64,000 nucleotides of DNA. Origin: Kaistia dalseonensis. Its GTDB lineage: Bacteria; Pseudomonadota; Alphaproteobacteria; Rhizobiales; Kaistiaceae. This document shows, piece by piece, positions 6,982-23,341 of this stretch; the stretch's first letter is position 1, and every line of letters begins with the position of its first letter. Where the stretch lies: positions 682,001 through 746,000 of the forward strand of contig NZ_JAUSVO010000001.1 in NCBI RefSeq assembly GCF_030814715.1, written 5' to 3'. The position numbers were made by a program, and so were the translations under genes. Under the pieces are notes generated by a model that worked only from the letters and a program-made list of their open reading frames with translations, was not told where the DNA came from and searched no databases.

Positions 6982-7959
<978 letters not shown>

Positions 7960-7960
<1 letters not shown>

Positions 7961-8973
7961 CAGCGTTCGTCCGTGAAGCGTGGGTTGAGCGCGTCGTTCA
8001 GGCCGTCGCCGATCAGGTTCAGCGCCAGCACGGTGAAGACGATGGCGAGGCCGGGAATGGCGGTGAGGTACCAAGCGGTGCGGAGCAGTTCACGGCCGTC
8101 GCCGATCATCGAGCCCCAGGAGACGAGATTGGGATCGCCGAGGCCCATGAATGAAAGCGCCGATTCCATCAGGATCGCCGAGGCGACCATGACCGACGAG
8201 GTGACGATGATCGGCGGCAGCGCGTTGGGCAGGATTTCGCGGATGATGATGCGAACATGGCCATAGCCGAGGCTGCGCGCCGCCACGACATAGTCCTTCT
8301 CGCGGATGGCGCGGAACTCGGAGCGCACGAGCCGCGCCACGGTCGGCCATGACACGATGCCGACCGCGCCCGTCACGACGGCGACGGATGGCTGGGCGAT
8401 CGCGACCAGCACGACCAGCAGGATGAAGCTCGGCAGCGTCTGCACGATCTCGATGAGCTTGACGAGGACGTCATCGACCCAGCCGCCGAAATAGCCGGCC
8501 GTCGAACCGATGATCAGGCCGACGGCGAGTCCGATTACGGTGGCGACGATGCCGACGAGCAGCGAGATCCGGGCCCCGTGCAGAATGCCGGAAAGGACGT
8601 CGCGGCCGAGCGAGTCGGTGCCGAGCGGATAGGTCGAGTTGGTGCCGGGCCAGATGAAGGGTCGCGCGACCATCGAGAGCGGGTCCTCGGGATAGAGCAC
8701 GGGCGCGAGCAGCGCGGCGGCCACGACGAGGACCAGGAAGATCAGGCCCGTCATGGCATTGGGATTGCGCAGGAAAACCCTGAGCGCGCGGTTCGCCGAC
8801 GTCGTTCCCGTCTCGGCAGAAGCGGTGGTCGCCCTCATCGCGTCCGGGGCATGGACGTTCGACCAGCGTTCCTCATTCGGCGTCGGCGCATCCGGTTTCG
8901 GCGGCGAACGATCATAGGCGAGGGCCGGGTTCAGGACGACCGGCGCGCGCTCGGCGGTATCTGGATTGCTCAT
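7960..8973 (-). CDS. Opp/Dpp-type ABC transporter permease (DppC-like)
   Basis: 337 aa inner-membrane permease with about six transmembrane segments. A long cytoplasmic N-terminus (about 80 residues) precedes the first segment, as is usual for DppC/OppC. The conserved sequence PFIWPGTNSTYPLGTDSLGRD and the EAA-type coupling loop (VAARSLGYGHVRIIIREILPN) identify the family. I use the ATG at 8973, which overlaps the stop of the upstream permease as TGATG; a TTG one codon earlier is possible. It forms the membrane channel with the 8973-9959 product. Confidence 0.94.
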
Positions 8974-9959
8974 CAACGAACTCCGATGCGCGGATCGAGC
9001 CAGGCATGGAGCAGGTCCACGACTGCATTGGCGGCGATCACGACGAGCGAGGAGAGGAGGAGAATGCCGAGAAGGACGGTGAAATCGCGCCCCATCACGG
9101 CCTCGAAGGCGAGGCGGCCGAGGCCAGGCCAGCTATAGACGGTCTCGACGACCACGGCGCCGCCGAGCATGCCGCCGAGATGCATGCCGGCCATCGTCGT
9201 GACCGGCAGCAAGGCGTTGCGGAGGATGTGCCGCGTCGTGATCGTGAAGGGAGAGAGGCCCTTGGCGGCCGCGGTGCGGACATAGTCCTGCGACTTGACC
9301 TCCAGCATCGCCGCACGCGTCAGCCGGGCATAGATCGCGACATAGAACAGCGCCAGCGAGGTCGCCGGCAGGATCATGTAGCGGAGCTGATCGAGGACAG
9401 CATGAAGTCCGGTGAGGTCCGAGCCGATCGTTCCGGAGCCGCCGCTCGGCAGCCAGCCGAGCTTGACCGAGAACAGCACGATCAGCATCAGGCCAATCCA
9501 GAAGCCGGGGATCGAATAGAACAGCAGCGAGAGGACCGAGATGATCCGGTCGGGCAGCTTGCCGGCGAAGACTGCCATGATCGAGCCGAGCGCGAGGCCC
9601 AGGACGACGGCGATCGCCAGCGCGACCAGCATTAGCAGCAGCGTGCCCGGCAGGCGCTGCCCGATCAGTTCGGCGACCGGCATGTTGTAGCGCGGCGAGA
9701 AGCCGAGGCTGAAATGGGCGAGATTGTCCAGATAGGCAAAGAGCCGGTGGAGGATCGGCAAGTCGAGCCCGAAACGTGAGCGCAGCGCCGCGACGGTCTC
9801 CTCCGTCGCCGAACCGGCCTCGCCGGCCATGACGTCGGCAGCGTCGCCAGGTGCGAGCTGCAGCAGGAAGAAGTCGAGGACGATGATCACCAAAATTGTG
9901 GGGATCGCCTGAAGCGCGGTGCGCAGGAGCGCACGCCCTATCCGTCGGTAAGCCGTCAT
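8973..9959 (-). CDS. Opp/Dpp-type ABC transporter permease (DppB-like)
   Basis: 328 aa inner-membrane permease and first gene of the dppBCDF-aldo/keto reductase operon. The N-terminal segment (IPTILVIIVLDFFLLQLAPGDA) with the LAPGD box is the DppB/OppB hallmark, and the EAA loop reads SQDYVRTAAAKGLSPFTITTRHILRN before VETVYSWPGLG. About six membrane helices are expected. No binding protein is encoded in the operon itself; the binding protein at 10269 is transcribed divergently from the same intergenic region and is the natural partner. Confidence 0.94.
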   Translation of the reverse strand: MTAYRRIGRALLRTALQAIPTILVIIVLDFFLLQLAPGDAADVMAGEAGSATEETVAALRSRFGLDLPILHRLFAYLDNLAHFSLGFSPRYNMPVAELIGQRLPGTLLLMLVALAIAVVLGLALGSIMAVFAGKLPDRIISVLSLLFYSIPGFWIGLMLIVLFSVKLGWLPSGGSGTIGSDLTGLHAVLDQLRYMILPATSLALFYVAIYARLTRAAMLEVKSQDYVRTAAAKGLSPFTITTRHILRNALLPVTTMAGMHLGGMLGGAVVVETVYSWPGLGRLAFEAVMGRDFTVLLGILLLSSLVVIAANAVVDLLHAWLDPRIGVR

Positions 9960-10268
9960 CCGATGGTCCGTTCACGCGAATGGATATCGAGCTGTTCAAG
10001 GGTGGCGTCCGGTCATGCCGCCGGGTGGCCAGCTCGTTGAAATATAAGTTGACTAGTTTTATGGACTTTGTCAAATCTAGTTATAGAAATTTGATCCTGA
10101 ATATCGGCATTAACTGGATCTACGTACCGAAATATTGCTCTCTTCGCCGTAGAGCAGGGATGGATTTCTCATCAGGACGGGATCGCGGAAACGCAGACCC
10201 CTCAAACGGCCCAATGATGAAACGGCTCTTCGACCGCTTGACCGGATCTCTTCAAGACAAGGTTCAAC
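9960..10268. promoter_or_regulatory. Divergent promoter region, A/T-rich, between permease operon and binding protein
   Basis: 309 bases without a gene. The part from about 10039 to 10143 is strikingly A/T-rich compared with its surroundings and contains an imperfect direct repeat (CTAGTTTTATGGACTTTG at 10053-10070 and CTAGTTATAGAAATTTG at 10077-10093) and an AATATTGC motif near 10131 that resembles sites at 1668-1686 and 23249-23258. Promoters for both directions and regulator sites are likely here, but I cannot assign -35/-10 boxes with confidence. Confidence 0.5.
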
Positions 10269-11882
10269 ATGACGACATCTCTTCTCACGCCCTCCCGCCG
10301 ACGCTTCCTGGCTCTCTCGGCCGGTGCTGCGGGGGCTGGTCTGCTTGGGCGCGTGTCTCGCCTTTCTGCCGACGAGATCAAGCGCGGAGGAACCGTCAAT
10401 CTCGTGCTTTCCGCCGAGCCGCCAGTCATCACGACGATCGCGCAGACTGCCTATAATTCGGTCTATCTTTCCGCCAAGACGACCGAGGGCCTGCTCACCT
10501 ATGATTTCGACCTGAACCCGAGGCCGCAGCTCGCGACGGAATGGTCGGTCAGCCCGGATGGCCTGCGCTACAGCTTCAAGCTGCGCGAGGGCGTCAAATG
10601 GCATGACGGTCAGCCTTTCACCTCGGCCGACGTCGCCTATTCGATTGCGACTATCAAGGAGGTTCACCCGCGCGGTCGCAGCACGTTCCGCAACCTGGTC
10701 GATATCCAGACGCCGGATGCGCATTCGGTCGTGCTCGTGCTTTCCAGGCCTGCGCCCTACCTGATCAGCGCGCTTGCCGCATCGGAAACCCCGATCGTGC
10801 CGAAGCATCTCTATGAAGGCACCAAGGCGGACACCAATCCCGTCTCGAATGCACCGATCGGCACGGGGCCATATCTCTTCAAGGAATGGGTGCGCGGTAG
10901 CCATATCGTCTACGAGCGCAACCCGGATTATTGGGACCAGCCCAAGCCCTATGTCGACCGGCTCGTGGTTCGCTTCATTCCCGACATCGCCGCCCGCGCG
11001 CTCGCTATCGAGACTGGCGAGATCCAGATCGGGCCGTCCTCGCCGGTGCCGCTCAGCGATCTCGAGCGCTTCGAACAATTGCCGAACATCGCCTTCGAGC
11101 GGAACGGCTACCAATATGCAAACGGCATATCGCGGGTGGAATTCAACCTGGACCGCCCCGTGTTCCAGGATGTCCGCGTCCGCCAGGCCTTCGCCCATGT
11201 GATCGATCGCCAGGTGATCCGCGATACGATCAATTACGGCTATGGCCAGACCATTCCCGGCCCGATCAGCCCGAACCTCACCAAGTTCTACTATCCCGAG
11301 CTGAAGACCTATCCCATCGATCGGGCCAAGGCCGAGGCCCTGCTCGACGAGGCGGGGCTGAAGCGCGGCGAGGACGGCGTGCGCGTTCGGCTCGTGCATG
11401 ACTATGTGCCGAGCGCGGAGAGCTACAAGCGCGGCGCCGACTATATCAAGCAGGCACTCGGCAAGGTCGGCATCGACGTGTCGGTGCGCTCGCAGGATTT
11501 CGCCTCCTACACCAAGCGCGTCTACACCGATCGCGATTTCGACTTCACCTTCAACGGCATGAGCAATTTGTTCGATCCGACGGTCGGCGTGCAGCGCCTC
11601 TACTGGTCGAAGAACTTCAAGCCCGGCGTGCCGTTCTCGAATGGCTCGCACTACAATAATCCGAAGGTCGACGCCCTGCTCGAGGCCGCCTCCGTCGAGG
11701 TGGATCCCGCGCTCCGCTATCAGCAATTCGTCGATTTCCAGAAGATCCTCGTCGAGGACCTGCCGGATATCGGCATCGTCAGCCAGCCGGACCTGACCAT
11801 CTACGACAAGCGCGTTGCGGGACACACGGTCGGCGCCGATGGCGTCGCCGGCAATCTCGCCGACGTGCATTTCATCGCCTGA
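10269..11882 (+). CDS. Family-5 ABC transporter substrate-binding protein
   Basis: 537 aa periplasmic binding protein with a Tat-type signal (PSRRRFLALSAGAAGAGLL, residues 8-26). Conserved SBP_bac_5 motifs include VSPDGLRYSFKLREGVKWH, HPRGRSTF and the C-terminal DPTVGVQRLYWSKNFKPG. It is one of three paralogues in 20 kb and the one physically paired with the dppBCDF-like operon transcribed the other way. Downstream, a GC-rich hairpin separates it from the flavin monooxygenase at 11934, a usual device for keeping binding protein in excess. The ligand is unknown; the following genes point to an organosulfur compound (inference). Confidence 0.94.
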   Translation: MTTSLLTPSRRRFLALSAGAAGAGLLGRVSRLSADEIKRGGTVNLVLSAEPPVITTIAQTAYNSVYLSAKTTEGLLTYDFDLNPRPQLATEWSVSPDGLRYSFKLREGVKWHDGQPFTSADVAYSIATIKEVHPRGRSTFRNLVDIQTPDAHSVVLVLSRPAPYLISALAASETPIVPKHLYEGTKADTNPVSNAPIGTGPYLFKEWVRGSHIVYERNPDYWDQPKPYVDRLVVRFIPDIAARALAIETGEIQIGPSSPVPLSDLERFEQLPNIAFERNGYQYANGISRVEFNLDRPVFQDVRVRQAFAHVIDRQVIRDTINYGYGQTIPGPISPNLTKFYYPELKTYPIDRAKAEALLDEAGLKRGEDGVRVRLVHDYVPSAESYKRGADYIKQALGKVGIDVSVRSQDFASYTKRVYTDRDFDFTFNGMSNLFDPTVGVQRLYWSKNFKPGVPFSNGSHYNNPKVDALLEAASVEVDPALRYQQFVDFQKILVEDLPDIGIVSQPDLTIYDKRVAGHTVGADGVAGNLADVHFIA

Positions 11883-11933: not shown

Positions 11934-13115
11934 ATGAACATCGCTCATAAGCCGGGATCCATCGTCGGCCTGCCGCATTTGCCTTCGCCGATCGATTATC
12001 CGGATAGCCCGCTCTCCAAGGCGCTCGAGCAGCCGATCCTGCTCGGCCTCTTCCTGCCGATCCAGGCGGGTGGCTGGACGCAATCGACCCTGCCGCGCAC
12101 GACGGATTGGAGCTTCGACTACAACAAGAAGCTGACGCTGCGTGCCGAGGAACTCGGCTTCGACCTCGTCTTCGCACTCTCGCAATGGCTGCCAAAGGGC
12201 GGCTATGGCGGCGTCTTCGACGGGCAGGCGCTCGACAGCTTCATTTCGATCAGCGCGCTCGCCGGCTTGACGAACAGGATCATCCTGATCTCGACCATCC
12301 ACGTCCTCTATGGGCCGTGGCATCCGCTCCATCTCGCGAAGTTCGGCGCGACGCTCGATCACATTACCGGCGGGCGCTGGGGCATCAACGTCGTGACCGG
12401 GCACCGGGCGGTCGAACACGAGATGTTCGGCTGGCCACGGATCGAGCACGACAAGCGCTATGAGCTCGCGGCCGAATTCATCGAGGTGCTGAACCGGCTC
12501 TGGACCGACAAGGAGAATTTCTCCTTCGAGGGTCAGTCGAGTTGGAAGCTTGGCGGCGGCTTCGTGACGCCGAAGCCGAATTTCGGCCGGCCGGTGCTCG
12601 TCAACGCGACCGGCTCGGACGCCGGCATCGCCTTTGCCGGCCGCTATTCCGATATCGTCTTCATCACCAGCCCGACCGGCTCCGACATCGACAGCGCGCT
12701 CGAATCGCTGCCGGCCCATGCGGCGCGGGTCAAGAAGTCGGCGACCGATGTCGGCCGCAGCGTCCGTACGCTGCTCAATCCCATGGTCATCGCCCGCGAG
12801 ACCGAGAAGGAAGCCTGGGACTATGCCGACGCGATCGTCGCCCATGCCGATCATCGCTCGAAGAACGGCTTCCAGTCCTTCGACAGCGACGCTCATGCCT
12901 GGAAGGGTCGCGAGGGCCGCGTCGACCCCTACAAGTTCGTCGGTGGCAATATCCGCGTCATCGGCAGCCCCGAACAGATCGTCGATCAGTTCGTGAAGCT
13001 GAAGCAGGCCGGCATAGACGGGCTGCAGCTCTCCTTCTTCGATTTCGCGCCCGACCTCGAATTCTTCGGCGACCGCATTCTGCCGCTCATGAAGCAGGCC
13101 GGCCTGCGCCTTTGA
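11934..13115 (+). CDS. LLM-class flavin-dependent monooxygenase, SfnG/SsuD-like (paralogue of the 1959 gene)
   Basis: 393 aa luciferase-like FMNH2-dependent monooxygenase. It shares with the protein at 1959 the WSFDYN box, LPKGGYGG, the GRWGINVVTGHRAVEHEMFGW core and the C-terminal DFAPDLEFFGDRILPL ending, so the two are paralogues. The family oxidises C-S bonds of sulfones and sulfonates. It is directly followed (11 bases) by the DszB-like gene and then the DszC- and DszA-like genes, so it most likely acts in the same organosulfur pathway. The substrate is not determinable from sequence. Confidence 0.92.
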   Translation: MNIAHKPGSIVGLPHLPSPIDYPDSPLSKALEQPILLGLFLPIQAGGWTQSTLPRTTDWSFDYNKKLTLRAEELGFDLVFALSQWLPKGGYGGVFDGQALDSFISISALAGLTNRIILISTIHVLYGPWHPLHLAKFGATLDHITGGRWGINVVTGHRAVEHEMFGWPRIEHDKRYELAAEFIEVLNRLWTDKENFSFEGQSSWKLGGGFVTPKPNFGRPVLVNATGSDAGIAFAGRYSDIVFITSPTGSDIDSALESLPAHAARVKKSATDVGRSVRTLLNPMVIARETEKEAWDYADAIVAHADHRSKNGFQSFDSDAHAWKGREGRVDPYKFVGGNIRVIGSPEQIVDQFVKLKQAGIDGLQLSFFDFAPDLEFFGDRILPLMKQAGLRL

Positions 13116-13126
13116 GGGAGATCACC

Positions 13127-14164
13127 ATGACCGACACGAACACGCTCGACGTCTGGTATACGCGCTGCCCCGTGCCGACGCCGCTCGGTCTCGCGGCACA
13201 GCTCGGCTGGCTCGAGGAGACGTTCCAGCATCACGGCGTCACGCTGAAATCAATCATCGATTCACCCGATCGATCAGTGCGCGAGAGCCATTTCGACCAT
13301 CACCTTTCCTGGTCGTTCCGCCAGGGCGGCAATGTTCCGCCGATCCGTGCGCGTTCCGAAGGCCGGGCGACGCGGCTGGTCGGCATAACCTGGACGGATG
13401 AGTTCCAGGCGCTGATCACCTTGCCGGAGACAGGCATCAGGACCACGCGCGATCTAGTTGGCCGCCGCTTCGGCATTGCGAGCCGGCCGGCGGGGATCGT
13501 CGATTTCCTCAAGGCCACCGCCCTGAAGGGCCTCGTCTCCGCGCTGTCGCTGGAAGGGCTGACCAAGCACGATGTGGAGATCGTCGACATTCCCGTCGCC
13601 GAATCCGTGATCGACGGCGTCGGCGACCCCACCCGCTTCGGCCTGAAGCAGCGTCTGCCCTATGCGCACGAGATCGCGGCGCTCATCCGCGGCGAGGTCG
13701 ATGCGGTCTATGTGAAAGGCACGCAGGGGATCACGGTCGCCAACCTGTTCGCCGCCGTTCCGATCGTCGAGTTCGGTTTCCATCCCGACCCGAAGATCCG
13801 CATCAATTCCGGCTCGCCGCGCGTGCTCACGGTCGATGAACGCCTGGCGGAGGAGCGGCCGGATCTGGTCGCGGCTCTGATCGGGACGATCCGGCGCGCC
13901 GGCGCCTGGGCCGAGGCCCATCCAGACGAGGTGCGCCGCTTCGTCGGCCGCGAGGTCGGCGCCTCGGAAGAGACCGTCCTCGCCGCCAACGGGCCGGATC
14001 TGCACCGCCATCTCGGCATCGGACTCGATCCCGACCTCGTCGATGCTGTCGGCCACTACAAGGATTTCCTCCGCGACGAGGGCTTCCTGGCTGGCGATTT
14101 CGGTATCGCGGATTGGGTCGACGAGCGGCCCTATCAAGCGCTCGACACGCTCGCCGTCGCCTGA
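13127..14164 (+). CDS. DszB-like sulfinate desulfinase (periplasmic-binding-protein fold)
   Basis: 345 aa protein that automated pipelines would probably call a sulfonate/nitrate ABC binding protein. It has no signal peptide, which argues against that. It resembles DszB, the 2'-hydroxybiphenyl-2-sulfinate desulfinase that releases sulfite. The DszB nucleophile Cys27 lies in NCPVPN; here RCPVPT puts it at C14. DszB His60 and Arg70 are ten residues apart in H-F...R-x-G-G-x-x-P-P; here H55 and R65 show the same spacing and the same HF and RQGGNVPP context. That identifies a desulfinase-type active site rather than a transporter component. The gene lies between the LLM monooxygenase and the DszC-like gene, matching the 4S pathway. 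The substrate could be any aryl or alkyl sulfinate. Confidence 0.82.
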   Translation: MTDTNTLDVWYTRCPVPTPLGLAAQLGWLEETFQHHGVTLKSIIDSPDRSVRESHFDHHLSWSFRQGGNVPPIRARSEGRATRLVGITWTDEFQALITLPETGIRTTRDLVGRRFGIASRPAGIVDFLKATALKGLVSALSLEGLTKHDVEIVDIPVAESVIDGVGDPTRFGLKQRLPYAHEIAALIRGEVDAVYVKGTQGITVANLFAAVPIVEFGFHPDPKIRINSGSPRVLTVDERLAEERPDLVAALIGTIRRAGAWAEAHPDEVRRFVGREVGASEETVLAANGPDLHRHLGIGLDPDLVDAVGHYKDFLRDEGFLAGDFGIADWVDERPYQALDTLAVA

Positions 14165-14181
14165 CGGCCAAGGGGATCATC

Positions 14182-15330
14182 ATGAACAGTCACGTCGCCG
14201 ATCACGATACGTTCATCGGCAAGGCGCGGGTGCTTGCAGACCGCTTTGCGCAGACTGCCGCGCATCACGATGTTACGGGCGAATTCCCGGCGGCCAATTT
14301 TCAGGCCTTGTTTGAGGCGGGGTTGCTCTCGATCCCCGCCGCCAAGGCTTATGGCGGGCCGGGCAGGGGTCTTGTCGATGCGCAGGCCGTGATCAGCGAG
14401 ATCGCGCGCGGCGAGCCCTCGACGGCGCTCGTGCTCGCGATGAACTATCTCCAGTTCGCGACGATCGCGCGCTCGCCGCAATGGCCGCCACATCTGGCGG
14501 AGGCGCTCGTGCGCCGTTCGCTCGAAAAGCCGACGCTTCTGAACGCGGCGCAGGCCGAACCGAGCGTCGGATCGCCGTCGCACGGCGCGCTGCCCGAGAC
14601 GCGGGCGCGTCTGGTCGACGGCGCCTGGCGGATCACCGGCCGCAAGAGCTACGTCACGGGGCAGCCCGGCTTGACCTATGCCGCCATCCTCGCCGTGACG
14701 GAGGAGGAGAACCCACGCCTCTCCCATCTTCTCGTGCCGCTCGATGCCCCCGGCATCACGGTGATTAAGACATGGGACACGGCCGGAATGCGCGCAACGG
14801 CGAGTCATGACGTTGTTCTCGATGATGTGGCGGTGCCGTTCGACCACCTGCTGGATGAGGTTCCTGCGTCGGCGGGCGTGAAGCGCGACGAGACCGGCAT
14901 GGCCTGGGCTTTCACGCTGATCGCCTCGGTCTATGACGGTGTCGCCCGTTCCGCGCGCGACTGGATCGTCGATTTCGTCAAGAATCGTGTCCCGGGCAGC
15001 CTCGGCGCCCCACTCTCCACCGTCCCGCGCATCCGCGACGGGATCGGCGATATCGAGGTGCGGCTGATCGCGAATGCGCGCCTGCTGCGTTCGATTGCGG
15101 ACGACGTCGATGCCGGGTTGCCGGTCGGTCCGGCTGCGGCGAGCGTCAAGCATGTCGTCATCGAAAACGCCTTCGCGATCACCAGTCTGGCACTCGAACT
15201 GGGCGGCAATCCCGGCATTGCGCGCACGTCGCCGCTGGAGCGTCACCATCGCGACGCTGTCGCCGGCCGTGCCCATGCGCCGCAAAGCAATCTGATCCGC
15301 GGCATCGCCGCCCGCGCCGTCCTGGGCTGA
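14182..15330 (+). CDS. Acyl-CoA-dehydrogenase-fold flavin monooxygenase, DszC/SfnB-like
   Basis: 382 aa flavoprotein of the acyl-CoA dehydrogenase superfamily. Within sulfur clusters this fold is represented by DszC (dibenzothiophene S-oxidation) and SfnB-type proteins, which use reduced flavin rather than CoA substrates. Visible features are EIARGEPSTALVLAMNY, the mid-domain WRITGRKSYVTG, TWDTAGMRATASHDV and a C-terminal helix ending RHHRDAVAGRAHAP, where DszC relatives carry active-site histidines. The ATG at 14182 has AAGGGG just upstream; the open frame extends further but overlaps the previous gene. It starts 17 bases after the DszB-like stop. It is probably S-oxidation or C-S cleavage, working with the flavin reductase at 17820-18386 (inference). 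Confidence 0.85.
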   Translation: MNSHVADHDTFIGKARVLADRFAQTAAHHDVTGEFPAANFQALFEAGLLSIPAAKAYGGPGRGLVDAQAVISEIARGEPSTALVLAMNYLQFATIARSPQWPPHLAEALVRRSLEKPTLLNAAQAEPSVGSPSHGALPETRARLVDGAWRITGRKSYVTGQPGLTYAAILAVTEEENPRLSHLLVPLDAPGITVIKTWDTAGMRATASHDVVLDDVAVPFDHLLDEVPASAGVKRDETGMAWAFTLIASVYDGVARSARDWIVDFVKNRVPGSLGAPLSTVPRIRDGIGDIEVRLIANARLLRSIADDVDAGLPVGPAAASVKHVVIENAFAITSLALELGGNPGIARTSPLERHHRDAVAGRAHAPQSNLIRGIAARAVLG

Positions 15331-15397
15331 GCCGCCACCGTTTCGCCGATGGCCGTTCTGTCGCGATGAACGCCTCTCAACCGGCCTCAAAAGACAA

Positions 15398-15420
15398 TAG
15401 TCTATCTTGTTGATAGACTA
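15398..15420. promoter_or_regulatory. Perfect inverted repeat upstream of the DszA-like gene
   Basis: Arms TAGTCTATC and GATAGACTA are perfectly complementary with a 5-base spacer, 110 bases before the start codon at 15531 and 67 bases after the DszC-like stop. The A/T-rich arms and the lack of a T-tract fit a dimeric regulator operator better than a terminator. The cognate regulator is unknown. Confidence 0.5.
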
Positions 15421-15530
15421 ATCAGCCGGCTAGCATGGCTCCCGTTCATCAAGCGATCCGCCGGCCGAGCCGCATGAGGCTTCGGCTCTGGCCGATCGAA
15501 ATCACCCTTTGACATCGGAGCGGGCCTGTC

Positions 15531-16889
15531 ATGGCAAAGCGCAAGGAACAGTTGAAGCTCGGCGCCTTTCTTCTCTTCACCGGCCACCATGTCGCGGCCT
15601 GGCGCCATCCGAAGGCGCAGCCCGACAGCGAGTTTCAGGATTTCGTCAAGCTGGCGAAGCTCGCCGAGGCGGCCAAGTTTGACGCAATCTTCTTCGCCGA
15701 TGGTGTCGGGGTTCGGCTCGACGATCCTGACGCCGCGAGTCGCAAGGCTCATAACGGCACCTATCCCTTCGAGCCGATCACGCTTCTCTCCGCGCTTGCC
15801 GCCGTCACGGAGAATATCGGCCTGATCGCGACGGCTTCGACGAGCTTCTCCGATCCCTACAATCTGGCCCGCCAGTTCGCCTCGCTCGATCGCTTGAGCG
15901 GAGGACGCGCCGGCTGGAACCTCGTCACGTCGTCGGATGCGGGTGCAGCGCTCAATTTCGGCCATGATGCGCATCTGCTGCATGGCGATCGCTATGAGCG
16001 CGCGCAGGAATTCGCCGATGTCGTGCTGGGCCTATGGGACAGCTGGGAGGATGACGCCTTCCCGCGCGACCGCGAGAGCGGGCGCTATTTCGACCGCGAC
16101 AAGCTGCATGTCCTCAATCATCGCGGCAAGCATTTCAAGGTTCGCGGGCCGCTCAATATTCCCCGCTCGCCGCAGGGCCACCCGGTCGTGGTCCAGGCCG
16201 GCGCCTCCGAGGCCGGCAAGGAACTTGCCGCCCGCACCGCCGAGGCGATTTTCGCCGCGCAGATCACGCTCGATGAGGCTGTCGCCTATTACGCCGACGT
16301 GAAGGGCCGACTGGCGAAATATGGCCGCTCGCCGGATGATCTGAAGATCCTGCCAGGGGTTCATCCGGTGATCGGCCGGACGGAATCCGAGGCGCGGGAG
16401 AAGTTCGAGGAATTGCAGGCGCTCATCCAGCCCGAGGTTGGGCTGAACCTGCTGGCCAACCTCTCTGGAGGCGTCGATCTTTCCCAATATCCGCTCGATG
16501 GCCCGCTGCCGGAGCTGCCCGAGACCAATGGCGGCAAGAGCCGGCAGGCCCTTCTGATAGAGCTGGCGCGGCGTGAAAACCTGACGATCCGCCAGCTCTA
16601 TCTGCGCATTGCCGGGGCGCGCGGCCATTGGCAGCTCGTCGGTACGCCGGAGCAGATTGCCGATCAACTCGAGGAGCGCTTCGAGAATTATGGTGCCGAC
16701 GGTTTCAACCTGATGTCGCCGATCAATCCGGGCGGCCTCACCGATTTCATCGAGCTGGTCGTGCCCGAACTGCGCCGTCGCGGCCTGTTCCGTTCCGAAT
16801 ATGAGGGCAAGACGCTGCGCGAAAATCTCGGGCTCAAGCGTCCGACCAACCGGTTTGCCGCCACTGAGGCGGTGGCCGCCGCCGAATAG
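15531..16889 (+). CDS. NtaA/SnaA/DszA-family FMNH2-dependent monooxygenase
   Basis: 452 aa LLM-superfamily enzyme of the NtaA/SnaA/DszA/SoxA branch, whose members use FMNH2 from a partner reductase; DszA opens the thiophene sulfone ring and NtaA attacks nitrilotriacetate. Family motifs are GHHVAAWRHP (18-27), ASTSFSDPYNLARQFASLD (102-120), SGGRAGWNLVTS (123-134), the linker KHFKVRGPLNIPRSPQGHPV, and the C-terminal LFRSEYEGKTLRENLGL. The start has GGAG 10 bases upstream. A second copy lies at 23342. With the DszB- and DszC-like genes before it, it completes a Dsz-type set, although an intergenic palindrome suggests its own promoter. Confidence 0.93.
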   Translation: MAKRKEQLKLGAFLLFTGHHVAAWRHPKAQPDSEFQDFVKLAKLAEAAKFDAIFFADGVGVRLDDPDAASRKAHNGTYPFEPITLLSALAAVTENIGLIATASTSFSDPYNLARQFASLDRLSGGRAGWNLVTSSDAGAALNFGHDAHLLHGDRYERAQEFADVVLGLWDSWEDDAFPRDRESGRYFDRDKLHVLNHRGKHFKVRGPLNIPRSPQGHPVVVQAGASEAGKELAARTAEAIFAAQITLDEAVAYYADVKGRLAKYGRSPDDLKILPGVHPVIGRTESEAREKFEELQALIQPEVGLNLLANLSGGVDLSQYPLDGPLPELPETNGGKSRQALLIELARRENLTIRQLYLRIAGARGHWQLVGTPEQIADQLEERFENYGADGFNLMSPINPGGLTDFIELVVPELRRRGLFRSEYEGKTLRENLGLKRPTNRFAATEAVAAAE

Positions 16890-16928
16890 CCGACAGGACT
16901 TTCATCCAATGCCAGGGATCAAGCGCTC

Positions 16929-17273
16929 ATGAGCCGAGACAAGCTATTTCTGATTGAGCCGGGCTTCGAGGATCCGACGCGTCCGGGCGAACGCTTCGTT
17001 TGTCCCTACTGCAATCAGGTCGAGGGGCTGCTCGCCGCCTTTCCCGATCTGGCGACCAGGCTCGATGTCGTTCGCGTGCCGTTCGCCCGCCCACGCCAGC
17101 CCGTGATCGATCTTCTCGGCGAGACGAACCAGTCGCTGCCGGTTCTGGTGTTGGCGGATGGCGAGGCGCCGGCGGATGCCGAGCGTCATGACGACCGCGC
17201 CTTCGTCAGCGACACCAGGCGGATCCTCGAACTCCTTTCGGAGCGCCACGGCTTCCCGCGCCTTCACGATTAG
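16929..17273 (+). CDS. DUF3088 family protein with thioredoxin-like CPYC motif
   Basis: 114 aa protein recognisable as DUF3088: it opens MSRDKLFLIEPGFEDP, has a glutaredoxin-type CxxC (FVCPYCNQVEG, C25 and C28), then FARPRQPVIDLLGETNQSLPVLVLADG. The fold is expected to be thioredoxin-like, but no biochemical role is established as far as I know. It lies 39 bases after the DszA-like gene in the same direction, so it may be co-expressed and act in thiol or redox handling during organosulfur use (inference). Full family length. Confidence 0.85.
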   Translation: MSRDKLFLIEPGFEDPTRPGERFVCPYCNQVEGLLAAFPDLATRLDVVRVPFARPRQPVIDLLGETNQSLPVLVLADGEAPADAERHDDRAFVSDTRRILELLSERHGFPRLHD

Positions 17274-17819
17274 AATTCGAGACGACGGAGTTCCCATGAC
17301 CGACCTATTCGAGCCCGATACCACCGATCCGCATCGACCCGTGGATCAAGCGCCACTACGGCGATCTCTACATCGAGACCAGAGACGCGACGGCGCTGGC
17401 GGACCAGGCGCTCGATGCGTTTGATCTTGCCTGGTCGCGTGGCGACGTTGAGCGGAACGCCGCCGGGCGTCCATGAGCAATGGTGGAACCGAAGCTGAGG
17501 CCAAGCAGCGGCAAGGCGACCTTTTCGCCCGGGTCCCACTCGACTGCAGCCTCGTCGGCGTGCTGCAGATCGATCGTGAGCGGCTGAAGCTCGACGAGAG
17601 GCTGCCCGGTGATCTGCCCGTGCCGCAGCAGGATGGCCTGTTCCGTACCGAATATGAGGGCCGCGGTCGACTGGACCGAACAGGCCTCCGTCCGGATCGG
17701 TACGAAAGAGGCCCTGAAGGGTCGCCACGCCATCGCCGACACGATCCGCGCGCTCGGCTTCGCCCTCAAATGAAGCGAGGATCGCGCGGCCGCGGTGCCG
17801 CGTGATCCGCCCCGCATCC
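17274..17819. pseudogene. Patch of gene fragments
   Basis: 546 bases with no intact gene but several protein-like pieces in different frames. ATG at 17296 with an upstream GGAG opens MTDLFEPDTT and then shifts frame into IRIDPWIKRHYGDLYIETRD, which continues to a stop at 17467. Bases 17635-17661 match 27 bases of the DszA-like gene C-terminus (16782-16808, LFRTEYEG against LFRSEYEG) with one mismatch. A plus-strand piece VRIGTKEALKGRHAIADTI ends at a stop at 17778, and a minus-strand frame over about 17474-17637 also looks codon-biased. I read this as remnants of rearranged genes. I recognise only the DszA-like piece. Confidence 0.45.
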
Positions 17820-18386
17820 TCAGCCGGCCTTGCCGGTCGGAGCGGTGTGGTTGGAGAGGTGGCGATAGCCGCCGTGCCAGTAGAGCAGCGGCTGAACTTC
17901 CGATCTGACGGTGATGGCACGGACCGATCCGATCAGGATCGCGTGCGAATGGCGCTCGATCGCTTCCTCGAGTTCGCAATCCAGCACGGTCAGCGCATTG
18001 ACGAGGCCGAGATTGCCCGTGACGAGCTGCTGCCAATCGGCGCCCTGATAGCGATCGGCACCCTTAATGCCACCGCGTCCGGCGAAATTATCGGCGACAT
18101 GCTGCTGGTCGTCGGCGAGTACGTTCACGCAGAAGCTGCGATAGCGCTGGATGATCGGCCAAGAGGAGGACGAGCGGTTCAGCGAGACGATGATCGAGGG
18201 ATTATCGGCCGAGAGCGACGAGACCGAGGTCGCGGTAAAGCCGGTCAGGTCGGAACCCTGGCCGACCGTGATGACGCTGACGGCGCCGGCGAGATGGCGC
18301 ATCGAATTCTTGAACGCGGCACTTTCGACCAGAGGCTGAAAGGGCTCGGCGCTCGTCCGTGAAGGATAGGCTGCGGCGAGGGACAT
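17820..18386 (-). CDS. Flavin reductase (HpaC/DszD-type)
   Basis: 188 aa FMN-binding split-barrel reductase (flavin reductase-like domain) that uses NAD(P)H to supply FMNH2 to two-component monooxygenases. Motifs: FKNSMRHLAGAVSVITVG, GFTATSVSSLSADNPSIIVSLN and FCVNVLADDQQHVADNFAG, with the C-terminal PLLYWHGGYRHL. I prefer the ATG at 18386, with GGAG seven bases upstream, over a GTG at 18398. It is downstream of the LysR gene on the same strand (33-base gap) and is the only reductase near the four LLM monooxygenases and the DszC-like enzyme, so it is the probable electron supplier for all of them. Confidence 0.92.
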   Translation of the reverse strand: MSLAAAYPSRTSAEPFQPLVESAAFKNSMRHLAGAVSVITVGQGSDLTGFTATSVSSLSADNPSIIVSLNRSSSSWPIIQRYRSFCVNVLADDQQHVADNFAGRGGIKGADRYQGADWQQLVTGNLGLVNALTVLDCELEEAIERHSHAILIGSVRAITVRSEVQPLLYWHGGYRHLSNHTAPTGKAG

Positions 18387-18419
18387 GGCGTTCTCCACGG
18401 TGGCGATGGGTCTTGGCGA

Positions 18420-19427
18420 TCAATGATGGGCGAGGGCGGGAACTGGCCGCTCGAAGGGTGGGGGCGCCTGGTCGAGGGCGCGGAGCGCGCGGGCCTCGGC
18501 GAGCAGCCAACTGCGGAACAGGTCGACGCGGGCGAGCTTGGCCTTGTGCGGCAAGGCCGCAAAGAAATAGGAGAACTCGACCTGCCGTGGCGGGCCGAGG
18601 GGCTGCACCAGCCGTCCGGCCTCGATGTCACCTTCGGCGAGACGCAGCTTGCCGAGGGCTATGCCCTGGCCGGCGATCGCGGCGTCAAGCACGAGCGAGG
18701 ACTGGTTGAGCCGGAGGCCGCCGGAGACCAATTGTCCCGGCAATCCGGCTGAACGGAGCCAGCTCGGCCAATCCGGGCAGGTCGGATCGCGCTCCGGCCC
18801 GTCATCGTGAATGACCGGCGCGCCACGCAGCGCTTCCGGGCCGCGGTGAAGGCCGTGGGCATGGGCGAAGGCCGGGCTGCAGACGGGTGCGACCGCCTCC
18901 GCGAACAGGCGCTCCACGGTGAGGCCCGGAAACGAGCCGGTGCCGTAGCGGATCACGCAGTCCATGTCTTCGGAGGCGAGATCGACATGATCGGCGGAGG
19001 CATCGACGACGATTTCAAGATCCGGTGCCGCTTGTTTCAGCGCGTCGAGGCGCGGCAGCAGCCAGCGACCGGCGAAGGAGGGCGGCACGGAGACCTTGAG
19101 CGGCGCGTCGTCCTCATAGCCCGAGAGCCGTGCCACGGATTCGACGACGGCCTCGAAGGCGCTGGTGAGGCCGGGCATCAAGGCGAGCCCGGCCTCGGTC
19201 AGTTGCAGCTTGCCGCGGTTGCGATGGAACAATGCCTGCCCGAGATGGTCTTCGAGCAGGCGAATCTGCTGGCCGATGGCTGCGGACGTGACGTGGAGTT
19301 CGTCGGCTGCCTGGGTGAAGCTCAGATGGCGCGCAGCGGCCACGAAGGCACGCAGCGACGTCAGCGGCGGCAAGCGCGCCAAGGTCGGCTGGAGCTGTCG
19401 GGAGCGAAATGCGTACACCTTGTTCAT
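18420..19427 (-). CDS. LysR-family transcriptional regulator (GcvA-like)
   Basis: 335 aa LysR regulator. The N-terminal helix-turn-helix (LTSLRAFVAAARHLSFTQAADELHVTSAAIGQQIRLLE) is of the GcvA-like type, followed by the usual effector domain (KVSVPPSFAGRWLLPRL, YGTGSFPGL, GQGIALGKLRLAEGDI). The start at 19427 is chosen because the longer open frame upstream is not conserved-looking. It is divergent from the binding protein at 19944 across a 516-base gap and upstream of the flavin reductase, so it probably regulates one or both. The effector is unknown; a sulfur source is inferred from context. Confidence 0.93.
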   Translation of the reverse strand: MNKVYAFRSRQLQPTLARLPPLTSLRAFVAAARHLSFTQAADELHVTSAAIGQQIRLLEDHLGQALFHRNRGKLQLTEAGLALMPGLTSAFEAVVESVARLSGYEDDAPLKVSVPPSFAGRWLLPRLDALKQAAPDLEIVVDASADHVDLASEDMDCVIRYGTGSFPGLTVERLFAEAVAPVCSPAFAHAHGLHRGPEALRGAPVIHDDGPERDPTCPDWPSWLRSAGLPGQLVSGGLRLNQSSLVLDAAIAGQGIALGKLRLAEGDIEAGRLVQPLGPPRQVEFSYFFAALPHKAKLARVDLFRSWLLAEARALRALDQAPPPFERPVPALAHH

Positions 19428-19943
19428 GGGCGCATTGCAGCATGAGAGGCCGCGACCTGACGAGGCCGCCCATGTCACGATCGATGGCGAACGAGACTTT
19501 CCGTCCTCGAAACGCACCGAAATTGAGAAAGGAAATCTGCTCGACGCAAGTTGTCCATTTAGTTGATCAAATTAGTCGTTTTTAGTTCGCTTTCGTTCCT
19601 GCCCCACGACCGAATCCCTGCTCGGCCAATGGCTCCTATGCGGGCCGCCGTGAGATGCGGCCTGGCCGCTCTGAAATGGGCGATGCGGGGCAGGTGTGGT
19701 TGACCATTATTCTGCGTCACAGAGTTCTGGAAGCATTATCGATCAGCGCGGCGCGAGGCGGCGGTAAATGATCTTTAGATTGATCGCGATTGCAAGAATG
19801 CGAATCTCAGAAAGCCGATCTATTCCAGCGCGATAGAAAAATGAACTTCGTTTCCTGCTTGATCGTCTGCACGCTCTGCTGATCGCGTCTGGATGCCCTC
19901 CTAGTCTGGACGCTTCGATTTGAACAAAGGTTCGGAGCAAGCA
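19428..19943. promoter_or_regulatory. Long divergent intergenic region, 516 bases
   Basis: No credible coding frame. A T-rich stretch at about 19550-19590 contains the perfect palindrome TTGATCAA (19563-19570) within TTTAGTTGATCAAATTAG, a reasonable LysR-type (T-N11-A-like) candidate site for the adjacent regulator. A second A/T-rich patch lies at 19755-19850. GGAG at 19934-19937 serves the downstream start. Beyond these I see nothing definite. Confidence 0.4.
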
Positions 19944-21542
19944 ATGACGATCACCCGACGGCTCTTCAACCAGATGCTGTTTCTTGCCGGTGCCAGCACG
20001 GCGCTGCCGTTTCACGCCTTCGCCGAAGAGAGCAAGCCGACGACAGGCGGGACGCTCAACTTCGTCTATTATCCCGAGCCCAACCAGATTGTCGCGATCA
20101 ACACCAGCGCCGGCGGCCCGGCGACGATCGGTCCGAAGATCTTCGACGGACTGCTCGCTTATGACTACAATCTCAATCCGAAGCCGGCTCTCGCCAAGGA
20201 ATGGTCGGTCAGCCCCGATGGGCTGGAACTGACCTTCAAGCTGCGCGAGGGTGTGAAATTCAGCGACGGCCATGATCTGACCTCGGAAGACGTCGCCTTC
20301 TCGATATCGCGCCTGCGCGAGGCGCATCCACGCGGCCGTATCACCTTCCAGAACGTGACGAATATCGACACGTCGGACCCGCATATCGTCAAGATCACGC
20401 TGTCGAAGCCGTCGGCCCCGATCCTCTCCGCGCTCGCGGCTACCGAGTCGCCGATCGTGCCGAAGCACATCTTCGAGGCGCTGAAGCCGACGGACGATCC
20501 CGCCTATGAGCAGATCATCGGCAGCGGACCGTTCGTGCTGAAGGAATGGGTCAAGGGCAGCCACATCCTCGTCGAACGCAACCCGACCTATTGGGATGCG
20601 CCGCGCCCCCATCTCGACCGCATCATCTTCCGCTTCATCACCGATCCTGGCGCACGCGCGGCGGCACTGGAAGCTGGCGAGGTCGATATCGGCCCGAACC
20701 CGGTCTCGTTTGGCGATCTGGAACGCTTCAAGGCCCTGCCGCAATTCGTCGTCGATACGACGGTGTTTGCCTATAGCGGTCCGCTGCACCAGCTGATCAT
20801 CAATCTGGAGAACAACTACCTGAAGGATCAGAAGGTTCGTCAGGCGATCGCCCATGCGATCAACCTTGAGCAACTCAACAATATCGTCTTCTACGGCTAT
20901 GGTCAGGTCTCGCCGACGCCGATCAGCGTGGTGAACACCAAATATTTCGATCCCGACGTCAAGGCGGCGACATTCGATCCCGCGCTTTCGGACAAGATTC
21001 TCGACGAGGCCGGCTACAAGCGCGGCGCCGATGGCTTCCGCTTCAAGCTGCGGCTCACCAACAATCCCTACAACCCTTCAGGCTATTCCGACTTCCTGAA
21101 GCAGGCGCTCGCCAAGATCGGCATCGACGCCGAAATCCAGAAGTTCGACTTCGGCACCTATGTGAAGACGATCTACACCGATGGCGCATGGGATCTCTCG
21201 ACCGAGTCCTGCGGCAATATCTTCGACCCGAGTGCCGGCGCACAACGTCTCTACTGGTCGAAGAACATCAAGAAGGGCCTGCCCTTCTCGAACGGCACCC
21301 ACTACGCCAATCCCGAGGTCGACGCCATCCTCGAGGCAGCCGCCATTGAGCTCGATGAAACCAAGCGCAAGGCGCTCTTCTTCAAGTTCCAGGAGATCAT
21401 CGCGCAGGAGCTGCCGATCATCAATCTGATCGCGCCGCCTACCATCATCGTTTCCAAGAAGACCGTGAAGAACTACGCACCGGGCGGGGAGGGGCTCTCC
21501 GGCAGCTTCGCCGACGCCTATATCGATCCTAACGCGGCCTGA
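19944..21542 (+). CDS. Family-5 ABC transporter substrate-binding protein, orphan
   Basis: 532 aa periplasmic binding protein with a Tat-like N-terminus (MTITRRLFNQMLFLAGAST). ATG at 19944 is preceded by GGAG with a 6-base spacer; a TTG eight codons earlier is less likely. The motifs VSPDGLELTFKLREGVKF, HPRGRITF and AGAQRLYWSKNIKKG mark it as the third paralogue of the 1-1592 and 10269 proteins. No permease or ATPase genes adjoin it, so it probably delivers to the transporter at 6040-9959. It stands opposite a LysR gene and converges on a FAD-dependent oxidoreductase. Confidence 0.93.
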   Translation: MTITRRLFNQMLFLAGASTALPFHAFAEESKPTTGGTLNFVYYPEPNQIVAINTSAGGPATIGPKIFDGLLAYDYNLNPKPALAKEWSVSPDGLELTFKLREGVKFSDGHDLTSEDVAFSISRLREAHPRGRITFQNVTNIDTSDPHIVKITLSKPSAPILSALAATESPIVPKHIFEALKPTDDPAYEQIIGSGPFVLKEWVKGSHILVERNPTYWDAPRPHLDRIIFRFITDPGARAAALEAGEVDIGPNPVSFGDLERFKALPQFVVDTTVFAYSGPLHQLIINLENNYLKDQKVRQAIAHAINLEQLNNIVFYGYGQVSPTPISVVNTKYFDPDVKAATFDPALSDKILDEAGYKRGADGFRFKLRLTNNPYNPSGYSDFLKQALAKIGIDAEIQKFDFGTYVKTIYTDGAWDLSTESCGNIFDPSAGAQRLYWSKNIKKGLPFSNGTHYANPEVDAILEAAAIELDETKRKALFFKFQEIIAQELPIINLIAPPTIIVSKKTVKNYAPGGEGLSGSFADAYIDPNAA

Positions 21543-21742: not shown

Positions 21743-23164
21743 TCAAGCCGGGATAGGTTCATAGGACTCGACCGGCAGGATCTGCTCAGCAAGCGCGATG
21801 GCCTGCGCAAGCTGTTCGCCGATCGAACTCGACTCCCAGGCGACGCCGCGAAACGGATGGCCGATGGCGAGGATGTTCGGCTGGACATGGCCGCGCCCGT
21901 CGATCACGAGCCCCTGCCTCGTGGCGTCGATGCCGAAGCCGGTGGCATGGGGACGAACGATCCCCTCCGCGACGAGGTTGCGGACGAGCGGATCGTCGAT
22001 CCGTGTCCAATCATGTTCCTGATGGCCACGGCAGTCGATGACACCGTCGAAGGCACGTTCTTCTACCGCACCGTTGTGACGCCAGCGGATCGTGGCAGCC
22101 AATCGGCTACCGATCGCGTCGAGCGATGTGACGCGGCCGGCACCGCGCGTGAGCCGCCCCTCTCGGATGACGTTGTCCACAACGGCGCCCGACGGCGGCG
22201 CTGCCCGGTGCAGCGCGACATCCCAGAAGGCGCGCAGATGCCGCGCGAAGCGCCTCTGTTCGGCGGCGTCCGCGCCCTGCCAGAGCGCCAGCACATGCGG
22301 GCGAATGGCGAGCGGGAGCCGTTGCCAATCCTCGCCGATCGCCGAGATTGCGCGTCGCTCGGCCTTGACGGCCGCAAGAAGCGCCTTGGCCGTCGTCGGG
22401 AAGGAGCCCGGCACGAGAAAGCTCGGCCATACCTCGGTCGTGCGTCGGGGTTCGATGAACTGGCCTCGCCGCGAGACGACCTGATAGCAACCGGCATAGC
22501 CGCGGCTCTCCAGGCTCGCGACGACATCGACCATGCTGAGGCTCGATCCAATGAGCAGTACCTCCCTTGCATTGGTGAGCCGGTCTATGGCGGCGCGATC
22601 CCAGGGATCGCGGACGAAACGCGGATGATCGGCGATCGCCGCCTCCTGCGGGCGAAGGGCCGATTGAAACACGCCGAGCGCAAGGACGACGCGATTGGCG
22701 ACAAGGGTTTCGCCGCCGTCGAGCTTGACCTCTGCCCTTCCATCGATCTGCCTGATCGATATGGCGGAGCCCTGCACATGGCGAAAGCTGGCGCGGCCCC
22801 CTGCCTCTCGCTGTGCGCGCTCGAGCTCGGACTGGAGATAGCTGCCATAGAGCCAGCGCGGCGCACTGCTTTCATGGATGTCGTCGGGAACGGCCCAGCC
22901 ATGCGCCGCACCGTGCTGCCGCAGCCAGTCGACCAGATGGTCGGGCCGATCGGGATGGAGGCCGAAGATGCGGGCGGGGCCGTTCAGCAGATGGACCGGG
23001 TCGGTGGTGCCGTAGGCGACGCCACGGCCCAGTTCAACGCGGCGCTCGATGATGGTGATGGCGAGCGGCGCTCTTGCCCGGTCCAGAAGCTTGATCGCCG
23101 TCACCGTTCCGGCGAAGCCGCCGCCGATGATGATGATGGAGCGGGGGGCGGCGCCGTTCGACAT
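21743..23164 (-). CDS. FAD/NAD(P)-binding oxidoreductase (NAD_binding_9 type)
   Basis: 473 aa flavoprotein with an N-terminal Rossmann motif (IIIIGGGFAGTVTAIKLL) followed by RGVAYGTTDPVHLLNGPA and later VLLIGSSLSMVDVV, the second dinucleotide fold. The arrangement matches the FAD-NAD(P)-binding family (pfam13454-like) with no assigned substrate. The start at 23164 has GGAG upstream. A clear paralogue lies at 33770-35242. It is divergent from the DszA-like gene at 23342, suggesting linked regulation. Reaction unknown; a monooxygenase or oxidoreductase role in the same catabolic region is inferred only from location. Confidence 0.88.
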   Translation of the reverse strand: MSNGAAPRSIIIIGGGFAGTVTAIKLLDRARAPLAITIIERRVELGRGVAYGTTDPVHLLNGPARIFGLHPDRPDHLVDWLRQHGAAHGWAVPDDIHESSAPRWLYGSYLQSELERAQREAGGRASFRHVQGSAISIRQIDGRAEVKLDGGETLVANRVVLALGVFQSALRPQEAAIADHPRFVRDPWDRAAIDRLTNAREVLLIGSSLSMVDVVASLESRGYAGCYQVVSRRGQFIEPRRTTEVWPSFLVPGSFPTTAKALLAAVKAERRAISAIGEDWQRLPLAIRPHVLALWQGADAAEQRRFARHLRAFWDVALHRAAPPSGAVVDNVIREGRLTRGAGRVTSLDAIGSRLAATIRWRHNGAVEERAFDGVIDCRGHQEHDWTRIDDPLVRNLVAEGIVRPHATGFGIDATRQGLVIDGRGHVQPNILAIGHPFRGVAWESSSIGEQLAQAIALAEQILPVESYEPIPA

Positions 23165-23341
23165 GGAGTTCTCCGACAGGATTGAAGCCGGCACGAGCGG
23201 CATCGTATGCAGACGACTTGGCCAGTCGCGCTAAGGCTCTGTCAAAGAACAATATTTTCGCCACCCGCGAAGGCCAGCTTCGCGCGCCTGTGCGTGAATG
23301 GCGCTAAGCATTGCACCATTGGCAGATGGGAGCAGCGTGCA
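23165..23341. promoter_or_regulatory. Divergent promoter region with ACAATATTTT motif
   Basis: 177 bases between two divergent genes. ACAATATTTT at 23249-23258, about 83 bases before the plus-strand start, matches the core of the minus-strand patch at 1668-1686 and a weaker site near 10131. A shared promoter element or operator is inferred. Confidence 0.4.

Follow-up and report, generated by a model that had tools for sequence, protein, structure and literature searches.

A question raised by the 64,000-nucleotide stretch of the Kaistia dalseonensis genome analysed here (RefSeq assembly GCF_030814715.1, contig NZ_JAUSVO010000001.1, positions 682,001 to 746,000; hereafter the window, in whose numbering positions are given unless another record is named) is whether a run of enzyme genes at 11,934 to 18,386 constitutes a re-ordered dszABC operon, as an earlier note made from the sequence alone had proposed, or belongs to a pathway of another kind. 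Work on DszB has centred on actinobacteria that desulfurise fuel. The genes named in the earlier note are all present where it placed them; the analysis nevertheless leads to a different unit, built around a DszB-family protein (13127-14164) and an Opp-type ATP-binding cassette (ABC) importer, which on balance appears, judging by sequence comparisons, to encode an import-coupled pathway from an organosulfur compound to sulfite that ends in a DszB-type desulfinase.

Sequence comparison places the 13127-14164 protein in the DszB family. A single-sequence search of the PDB returned DszB as the sole match at E<=0.001 (2.5e-13), and a profile of 42 homologues retrieved DszB at 3.8e-29, the next match being SsuA at 0.0089; the SsuA_fam profile (TIGR01728) scores the protein at 58.8 bits, below its cut-off of 163.5. 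At 24-25% overall identity, the alignment sets Cys27, His60, Arg70, Gly72 and Gly73 of DszB against Cys14, His55, Arg65, Gly67 and Gly68, and Ser25 against Thr12, so that the hydroxyl is retained. Among 99 homologues (the window's own protein counted), Cys and His are each retained in 98 and Arg and both Gly in all 99, while 14 matches from nine further loci, with identities down to 26%, keep Cys and His in 13 cases and Arg-X-Gly-Gly in 14 (one of these loci, L083, repeats L002, and another, L087, looks like the contig of L052). In alignments with SsuA (2x26 and 3uif), by comparison, only the second Gly is retained, and 3uif, the longer alignment, has neither His nor Arg. DszB is described, in the accessible portion of one study, as a cofactor-free enzyme in which C27 acts as proton donor and H60 stabilises C27, the RXGG motif being common to DszB homologues (PMC6100217). 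The label "DszB-like" given in the earlier note is thus strongly borne out, and the protein is likely to be a sulfinate desulfinase. Both exceptions to residue retention, one in L043 (1906-2874) and one in L094 (5264-6253), have lost Cys and His jointly and kept Arg-X-Gly-Gly; they are possibly non-catalytic binding proteins, and the L043 paralogue is flanked by OppA and an SfnB-type gene.

The predicted model of the protein (predicted local distance difference test, pLDDT, 89.5) places the first strand at residues 7-13 with Cys14 immediately after it, so there is no room for a signal peptide; none was seen on inspection of the model, and a cytoplasmic location is predicted. The sulfonate-binding proteins SsuA and TauA are exported. 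A Foldseek search with the model ranks DszB best by E-value (6e-21, versus 1e-14 for SsuA).

The features recognised in the window around this gene are as follows.

1-1694 (L092 14968-16695), minus strand: solute-binding protein OppA3, its frame reaching about 33 bp beyond the left edge of the window (SBP_bac_5, 1.1e-95)
1959-3125, plus strand: luciferase-like monooxygenase (LLM) LLM4, a paralogue of LLM1 (59%)
4249-4701, minus strand: Rrf2-family, CymR-like regulator, a neighbour with a candidate role only (Rrf2 superfamily, 121 bits, above the cut-off of 73)
4934-6007, minus strand: aldo-keto reductase (AKR), core (PF00248, 1.8e-68)
6040-6984, minus strand: OppF-type ATPase (ABC_tran and oligo_HPY)
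6959-7960, minus strand: OppD-type ATPase (ABC_tran and oligo_HPY)
7960-8838, minus strand: OppC-type permease, start codon uncertain (BPD_transp_1 and OppC_N)
8973-9959, minus strand: OppB-type permease (BPD_transp_1 and N-terminal domain)
10046-10077, no strand: dyad TTGAC-N16-GTCAA where OppB and OppA diverge, a candidate operator or promoter element
10269-11882, plus strand: solute-binding protein OppA1 (SBP_bac_5, 2.5e-91)
11934-13115, plus strand: LLM1, of the SfnG/RutA group, nearest to SfnG
13127-14164, plus strand: DszB-family protein, a predicted cytoplasmic sulfinate desulfinase (Cys14, His55, Arg65-X-Gly67-Gly68)
14182-15330, plus strand: ACAD1, a flavoprotein of acyl-CoA dehydrogenase fold with a C-terminal H-A/S-P motif
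15531-16889, plus strand: LLM2, a flavin mononucleotide (FMN)-dependent monooxygenase of the NtaA/DmoA family, the family of DszA, CmoJ and DmoA (TIGR03860)
16929-17273, plus strand: DUF3088 protein with a CPYC motif (PF11287, 2.5e-45)
17820-18398, minus strand: flavin reductase (PF01613, 1.1e-35)
18420-19430, minus strand: LysR-type regulator of GcvA type (PRK11139, 296.7 bits, above the cut-off of 288)
19920-21542, plus strand: solute-binding protein OppA2, second module (best family Opp4A, below its cut-off)
21743-23167, minus strand: oxidoreductase binding flavin adenine dinucleotide (FAD) and nicotinamide adenine dinucleotide (phosphate) (NAD(P)), second module (PF13454, 8.7e-33)
23342-24697, plus strand: LLM3, an NtaA/DmoA-family monooxygenase, second module (TIGR03860)

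The importer genes together span 6040-11882, and the N terminus of OppA1 shows, by eye, a twin-arginine stretch (RRRFLAL). The CymR profile gives the Rrf2-family regulator 89 bits, short of its cut-off of 195. An Rfam search of window positions 1-30000 returned no RNA element match.

Which of these genes belong together was judged from a pattern scan of a genome collection (described by the tool as covering 84,980 species) that yielded 101 confirmed relatives, the best 80 of which, mostly Rhizobiales by their titles, supply the locus counts given here. Most of the 80 loci share one conserved unit, in which AKR-OppFDCB diverges from OppA-LLM-DszB-flavoprotein around a single dyad: AKR is found in 72 of the 80, OppF in 72, OppD in 73, OppC in 76, OppB in 77 (76 under a stricter length limit), OppA in 77 (at least 50%), ACAD1 in 70 and LLM1 (at least 60% identical) in 47. 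Chance does not explain the arrangement, as most of the 80 loci, all from other genomes, show it too. SfnB homologues (at least 50%, at least 200 amino acids) occur in 57 loci, NtaA-type LLMs in 45, a second DszB in 16, Rrf2 homologues in 15, the flavin reductase in 12 (11 under the stricter length limit) and DUF3088 in 4; the DszA-like gene, DUF3088 and the reductase are thus neighbours that may be present or absent. When the 70 loci longer than 19 kb are compared, kinship among loci being ignored, LLM1 is present in 38, and an NtaA-type LLM accompanies 30 of the 32 loci lacking LLM1 as against 14 of the 38 possessing it, so that one enzyme type seems to replace the other (the two loci with neither are L038 and L056, the latter having a shorter NtaA-type match). 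Because LLM2 is optional and LLM1 and NtaA-type enzymes seem interchangeable in these counts, LLM-B-C-A is not the right unit. The proposal that the four enzymes represent a re-ordered dszABC is not supported: the 14182 protein is not DszC, as detailed below, LLM2, DUF3088 and the reductase fall outside the conserved unit, and neither a dszC orthologue in the operon nor a dszA orthologue in the conserved unit was found. The tie to an Opp importer, which had also been pointed out, stands, but AKR and OppFDCB, not listed as core at that time, are core.

The dyad, about 30 bp long, lies inside a longer conserved stretch in 71 of 77 promoter regions running from OppB to OppA (or DszB), these being the window plus the 76 loci whose OppB is encoded on the minus strand; it is not present in five betaproteobacterial loci (L075, L076, L077, L081 and L082) or in L027. 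It is a single site in the whole source genome, where the search gave three rows, amounting to one place read on both strands plus a poor match (control, five), and hence no second convincing site. Across 297 genomes of the order, the perfect dyad occurs only in the source genome (G000) and G187, both cluster-bearing; with up to three mismatches it is found in 38 of the 297, as against 23 for a control pattern, and most of these imperfect matches look like chance. The cluster-bearing genome G158 (L086) has the dyad twice, in both cases upstream of an OppA gene. A promoter scan gave no sigma-70 match at the dyad.

The flavoprotein encoded at 14182-15330 had been called DszC-like, a label that neither the DszC profile (48 bits, cut-off 850) nor the ranking in a clean profile supports. 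In a single-sequence PDB search, its first matches are 5gj7/5z8t (7e-54), followed by short-chain acyl-CoA dehydrogenase, with DszC at only 6e-13, and a clean 34-row profile of its family likewise places DszC below ordinary acyl-CoA dehydrogenases. An initial profile had put DszC above them; it was discarded, as 6 of its 40 rows were of another flavoprotein type (five SfnB-type copies and one 25% relative in L081) and the clean profile reversed its ranking. The AlphaFold model, built with that initial profile and hence with the same six foreign rows, has as its nearest Foldseek match 5z8t, titled "flavin-containing monooxygenase", with acyl-CoA dehydrogenases next. Sixty of 67 aligned ACAD1 sequences carry H-A-P or H-S-P where dehydrogenases would hold their catalytic glutamate, a site near the C terminus, and the 14182 protein does not have this glutamate; acyl-CoA dehydrogenases with the base placed elsewhere exist. 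From these comparisons, the protein is likely a flavin monooxygenase. The SfnB/DszC-type gene of relatives has its match outside the window: it occupies G000:C1:680645-681835, so that less than 0.2 kb separates it from the window's first base (682001). Its best family is SfnB (TIGR04022) at 296.6 bits (cut-off 430.9, missed), and it scores 134 bits with DszC, again below the cut-off.

The remaining enzymes of the original proposal are placed at family level. LLM1, described earlier as SfnG/SsuD-like, has SfnG (8t0u, 8.9e-47) as its best PDB match, but its 211.4 bits with the SfnG profile (TIGR04021) miss the cut-off of 382.95. Likewise, "DszA-like" is apt for LLM2 as regards family, TIGR03860 (cut-off 279.7) giving 592.2 bits for LLM2 and 584.4 for LLM3, but not as regards closest kin: its nearest solved relatives are MoxC, 7e36 and YtnJ, with DszA-type 5tlc ranking later. 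The DUF3088 CPYC protein and the flavin reductase are of the families originally assigned, and the reductase, by its family, likely supplies FMNH2. The interval between their genes (17297-17805) holds coding-like pieces in differing frames, one of which is similar, to the eye, to the C terminus of NtaA-type enzymes; the interval looks like a gene remnant.

The cluster sits in a larger island, and very likely serves sulfur supply. Leftward lie an OppA gene, the LLM1 paralogue, two SfnB-type genes, genes for an SsuC-type permease and an SsuB-type ATPase (both left of the window and below their family cut-offs), an amidohydrolase gene and the Rrf2 regulator. The SsuB-type ABC ATPase domain is joined to three rhodanese stretches in a single 624-residue frame (L092 9797-11668, G000:C1), and 12 of the 80 loci have rhodanese proteins related to it. 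Rightward, a second module consists of OppA2, the FAD oxidoreductase and the NtaA-type LLM3; it also stands beside the cluster in three Mesorhizobium loci (L032, L042 and L054), where copies 76-77% identical to LLM3 adjoin it, and OppA2 relatives are found beside the cluster in other loci too. A second DszB relative in the source genome (L083 8684-9889, G000:C4; 27%) retains Cys, His and Arg-X-Gly-Gly and neighbours an AraC regulator, a SulP permease and a disulfide-reductase/rhodanese fusion; at E<=1e-40, relatives of this kind occur in 2 of the 297 genomes of the order, its own included.

The model strain Sinorhizobium meliloti offers a view of expression. Its pSymA holds the cluster, with a DszB protein 74.5% identical and the dyad present, and in strain ml28 the cluster has sulfate ABC transporter genes on one side and a gene for a SorA/SoxC-type sulfite dehydrogenase on the other; the pSymA sulfate-binding protein scores 422 bits (cut-off 155.5), and the sulfite dehydrogenase misses its family cut-off. 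In S. meliloti 1021 pSymA (L093 13058-14259), the ACAD1 gene seems to be in two pieces, and it is a single frame in ml28. Reporters of two divergent transcription units, sma2085-sma2077 (five genes) and sma2087-sma2101 (eight genes), were reported, in the portion of the study available, to be up specifically in the pSymB deletion B180, which spans 635,940-869,642 (PMC5940162); the gene counts and layout of these units fit OppB-C-D-F-AKR and the DszB operon. Within B180, at pSymB 771,894-772,916, lies a gene whose sulfate-binding product shares 83% identity with that of pSymA, and its counterpart in Ak57 (a 1.66-Mb record titled pSymA and of pSymB size) heads an sbp-cysT-cysW-ATPase operon. As a sulfate transporter is thus encoded inside B180, the reporter rise suggests a sulfur-starvation response, which is the simplest link between the deletion and the rise, though not the sole one. 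The strict dyad pattern has no match in the B180 region and, there being no second convincing site in the source genome either, the notion that the dyad belongs to a wider regulon was rejected. The Rrf2 regulator was considered as the factor acting on the dyad, a candidacy weakened by its location outside B180 in S. meliloti and its occurrence at only 15 of the 80 loci.

Taken as a pathway, the gene set allows the following tentative order of steps. The Opp-type importer would take up an organic sulfur compound, whose sulfur would be oxidised by the SfnB/DszC-type enzyme left of the window, the 14182 flavoprotein, or both. LLM1 (in relatives lacking it, usually an NtaA/DszA-type enzyme) would then cut one C-S bond to give a sulfinate and probably an aldehyde, the latter being reduced by the AKR, and the 13127 enzyme would release sulfite from the sulfinate with Cys14 as proton donor assisted by His55 and Arg65. 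The sulfite would feed cysteine synthesis. Both directions of transcription would be set by the single dyad at 10046-10077, and would probably be raised on sulfate shortage. The earlier note had inferred sulfite release from an imported sulfur compound, and the desulfinase-type gene, the Opp importer and the flavin monooxygenases do point there; what does not hold is the dszABC framing. By analogy with DszB, whose chemistry suggests as much, the substrate of the desulfinase may be an aromatic or similar sulfinate.

Several observations weigh against this pathway. The equivalog cut-offs for SfnG, SfnB and DszC are all missed. The fold alone cannot separate the 13127 protein from binding proteins, the TM-score being 0.72 for both DszB and SsuA; because this score does not favour DszB, the argument for DszB is carried by residues and sequence. 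DszB chemistry is an aromatic substitution (PMC6100217, in the portion available), and such a substrate is not known for the cluster. As for S. meliloti, the sma tags were assigned to the locus because replicon, gene counts and divergent layout agree, and annotation played no part in this; some 234 kb are missing in B180; the reporter medium was M9-sucrose with 1 mM MgSO4, and a word search of the main text found none of "sulfur", "sulfate", "sulfonate" and "taurine" (PMC5940162). The Rrf2 homologue lies at pSymB 1,230,321-1,230,755, outside B180, and so is not the obvious regulator. Finally, a sulfite dehydrogenase neighbour and a sulfate-binding protein are each found at 1 of the 80 loci, the sulfate-binding gene lying about 10.4 kb from the DszB gene and thus mostly beyond the 10-kb flanks of those loci.

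Relatives at E<=1e-20 occur in 5 of 297 genomes of the order (the source included) and in none of the 5 further genomes sampled from the source's genus, a patchy distribution consistent with a cluster that is perhaps mobile. The DszB-family branch also reaches Comamonas, Variovorax, Burkholderia and Streptomyces, with tandem copies and with paralogues lacking both catalytic residues. A relative of the DszB protein is present in 87 plasmid records, 60 of them predicted to be conjugative, and the earlier description of the genes as lying outside the classical plasmid context is accordingly loose. Among 30 of these 87 records, the gene is named in 10; nine of the names read ABC transporter substrate-binding protein, and the tenth, that of a Mycobacterium plasmid gene with 26% identity, reads 2'-hydroxybiphenyl-2-sulfinate desulfinase. 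On a Streptomyces plasmid (L095 7950-13739), the genes after a DszB relative of 38% identity encode an SsuA-type binding protein, a permease, an ATPase, another binding protein and an LLM, which by analogy would be the same enzyme idea with another importer type. At L089 8821-12894, a DszB relative of 34% identity has in its vicinity a Rieske oxygenase and an NtaA-type LLM that shares about 55% identity with LLM2.

Of the competing explanations, the one that survives best, though it is rather unlikely, is an Sfn/Msu-type route for small alkyl sulfones, in which LLM1 would produce an alkanesulfinate, a flavoprotein would convert it to a sulfonate and LLM2 would desulfonate the product, with the DszB relative as an accessory. 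The enzyme families do fit the SfnG and MsuC/SfnB roles (PMC8234197, in the portion available), but LLM2 is of NtaA/DmoA rather than MsuD/SsuD type, NtaA-type enzymes are missing from many loci (45 of 80 have one), the DszB protein holds a full desulfinase site, and an Opp importer should be needless for small sulfones. It is improbable that the genes form a catabolic cluster that draws carbon or nitrogen from an opine-like or xenobiotic compound, with sulfur release incidental to it. Opp importers and NtaA-type enzymes serve non-sulfur substrates too, and genes for an FAD monooxygenase, an amidohydrolase and an NAD(P)-binding protein occur near some loci; the SfnB, rhodanese and SsuBC-type neighbours speak against such a cluster, as does induction in B180, a deletion that lacks the sulfate transporter. 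Still less probable is what most annotation says, namely that an ABC importer uses the 13127 protein as an ordinary sulfonate-binding protein: the shared fold, the 58.8 bits with SsuA_fam and the nine plasmid labels would suit such a protein, but the SsuA cut-off is missed, the profile match to DszB is far stronger, the catalytic residues are retained, there is no space for a signal peptide, OppA1 with its twin-arginine stretch already serves the importer, and the Streptomyces plasmid homologue adjoins a separate NrtA/SsuA-type binding protein. Least probable of all is a true dibenzothiophene 4S pathway in Rhizobiales, since the DszB-family protein, the occurrence of the cluster in a Chelatococcus genome (L053) and the Chelatococcus strain with dibenzothiophene desulfurisation and a DszB-like peptide are offset by the low identity to DszB, the absence of a DszC orthologue from the operon, the Opp-type importer and the match of that peptide, in the part of the source available, to the 2de2 sequence instead of this family's consensus (PMC4839641).

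The import-coupled pathway ending in desulfination hence remains the preferred reading, and the cluster probably lets soil bacteria draw sulfur from an organic compound. Soil sulfur is mostly organic. A wider and more tentative proposal than the order of steps is that import-coupled desulfination, separate from dszABC, may be widespread in rhizobia as a sulfate-starvation response that uses an aromatic or vinylic sulfide or sulfone from plants or humus, with the DszB branch hidden among ABC substrate-binding proteins. If true, enzymatic desulfination would be part of the normal sulfur nutrition of root-associated bacteria, S. meliloti included, many proteins labelled as transporters would be enzymes, and a route to organic soil sulfur would be open to study in that model strain. 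A description of the cluster was not found in the literature on desulfinases, DszB, SfnB/SfnG and SMa tags, a search outside of which most subscription papers fell.

Set beside known systems, the 13127 protein has the same fold, length and Cys/His/Arg-X-Gly-Gly residues as Rhodococcus DszB (2de2/2de3), whereas its operon contains an Opp importer, LLM1 and AKR in place of dszA and dszC. The cluster would follow the logic of the dszABC 4S pathway, that is, sulfur oxidation, FMN-dependent C-S cleavage by an LLM and desulfination, but its genes and their order are different, the operon lacks a DszC orthologue, the importer is a dedicated one and the distribution is mostly Rhizobiales. The Pseudomonas Sfn/Msu pathway likewise has an SfnG-group LLM, an SfnB-type flavoprotein nearby and a separate flavin reductase; the present cluster misses the corresponding equivalog cut-offs and has a DszB-type protein instead of oxidation to the sulfonate, as well as the Opp importer. 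LLM, SfnG and SfnB also stand together in a Gordonia sfnB/sfnG region without dsz, proposed to serve dibenzothiophene use, whose layout is TetR-LLM-SfnG-SfnB-TerD and for which the accessible part of the source lists no DszB-type gene and no Opp importer (PMC9861168). The SsuA/TauA proteins share the fold, with the His and Arg of the site absent (3uif) and a far weaker sequence match. In summary, DszB-type desulfination is known, while the gene set, the importer, the taxonomic setting and the promoter element together make this cluster a new variant.

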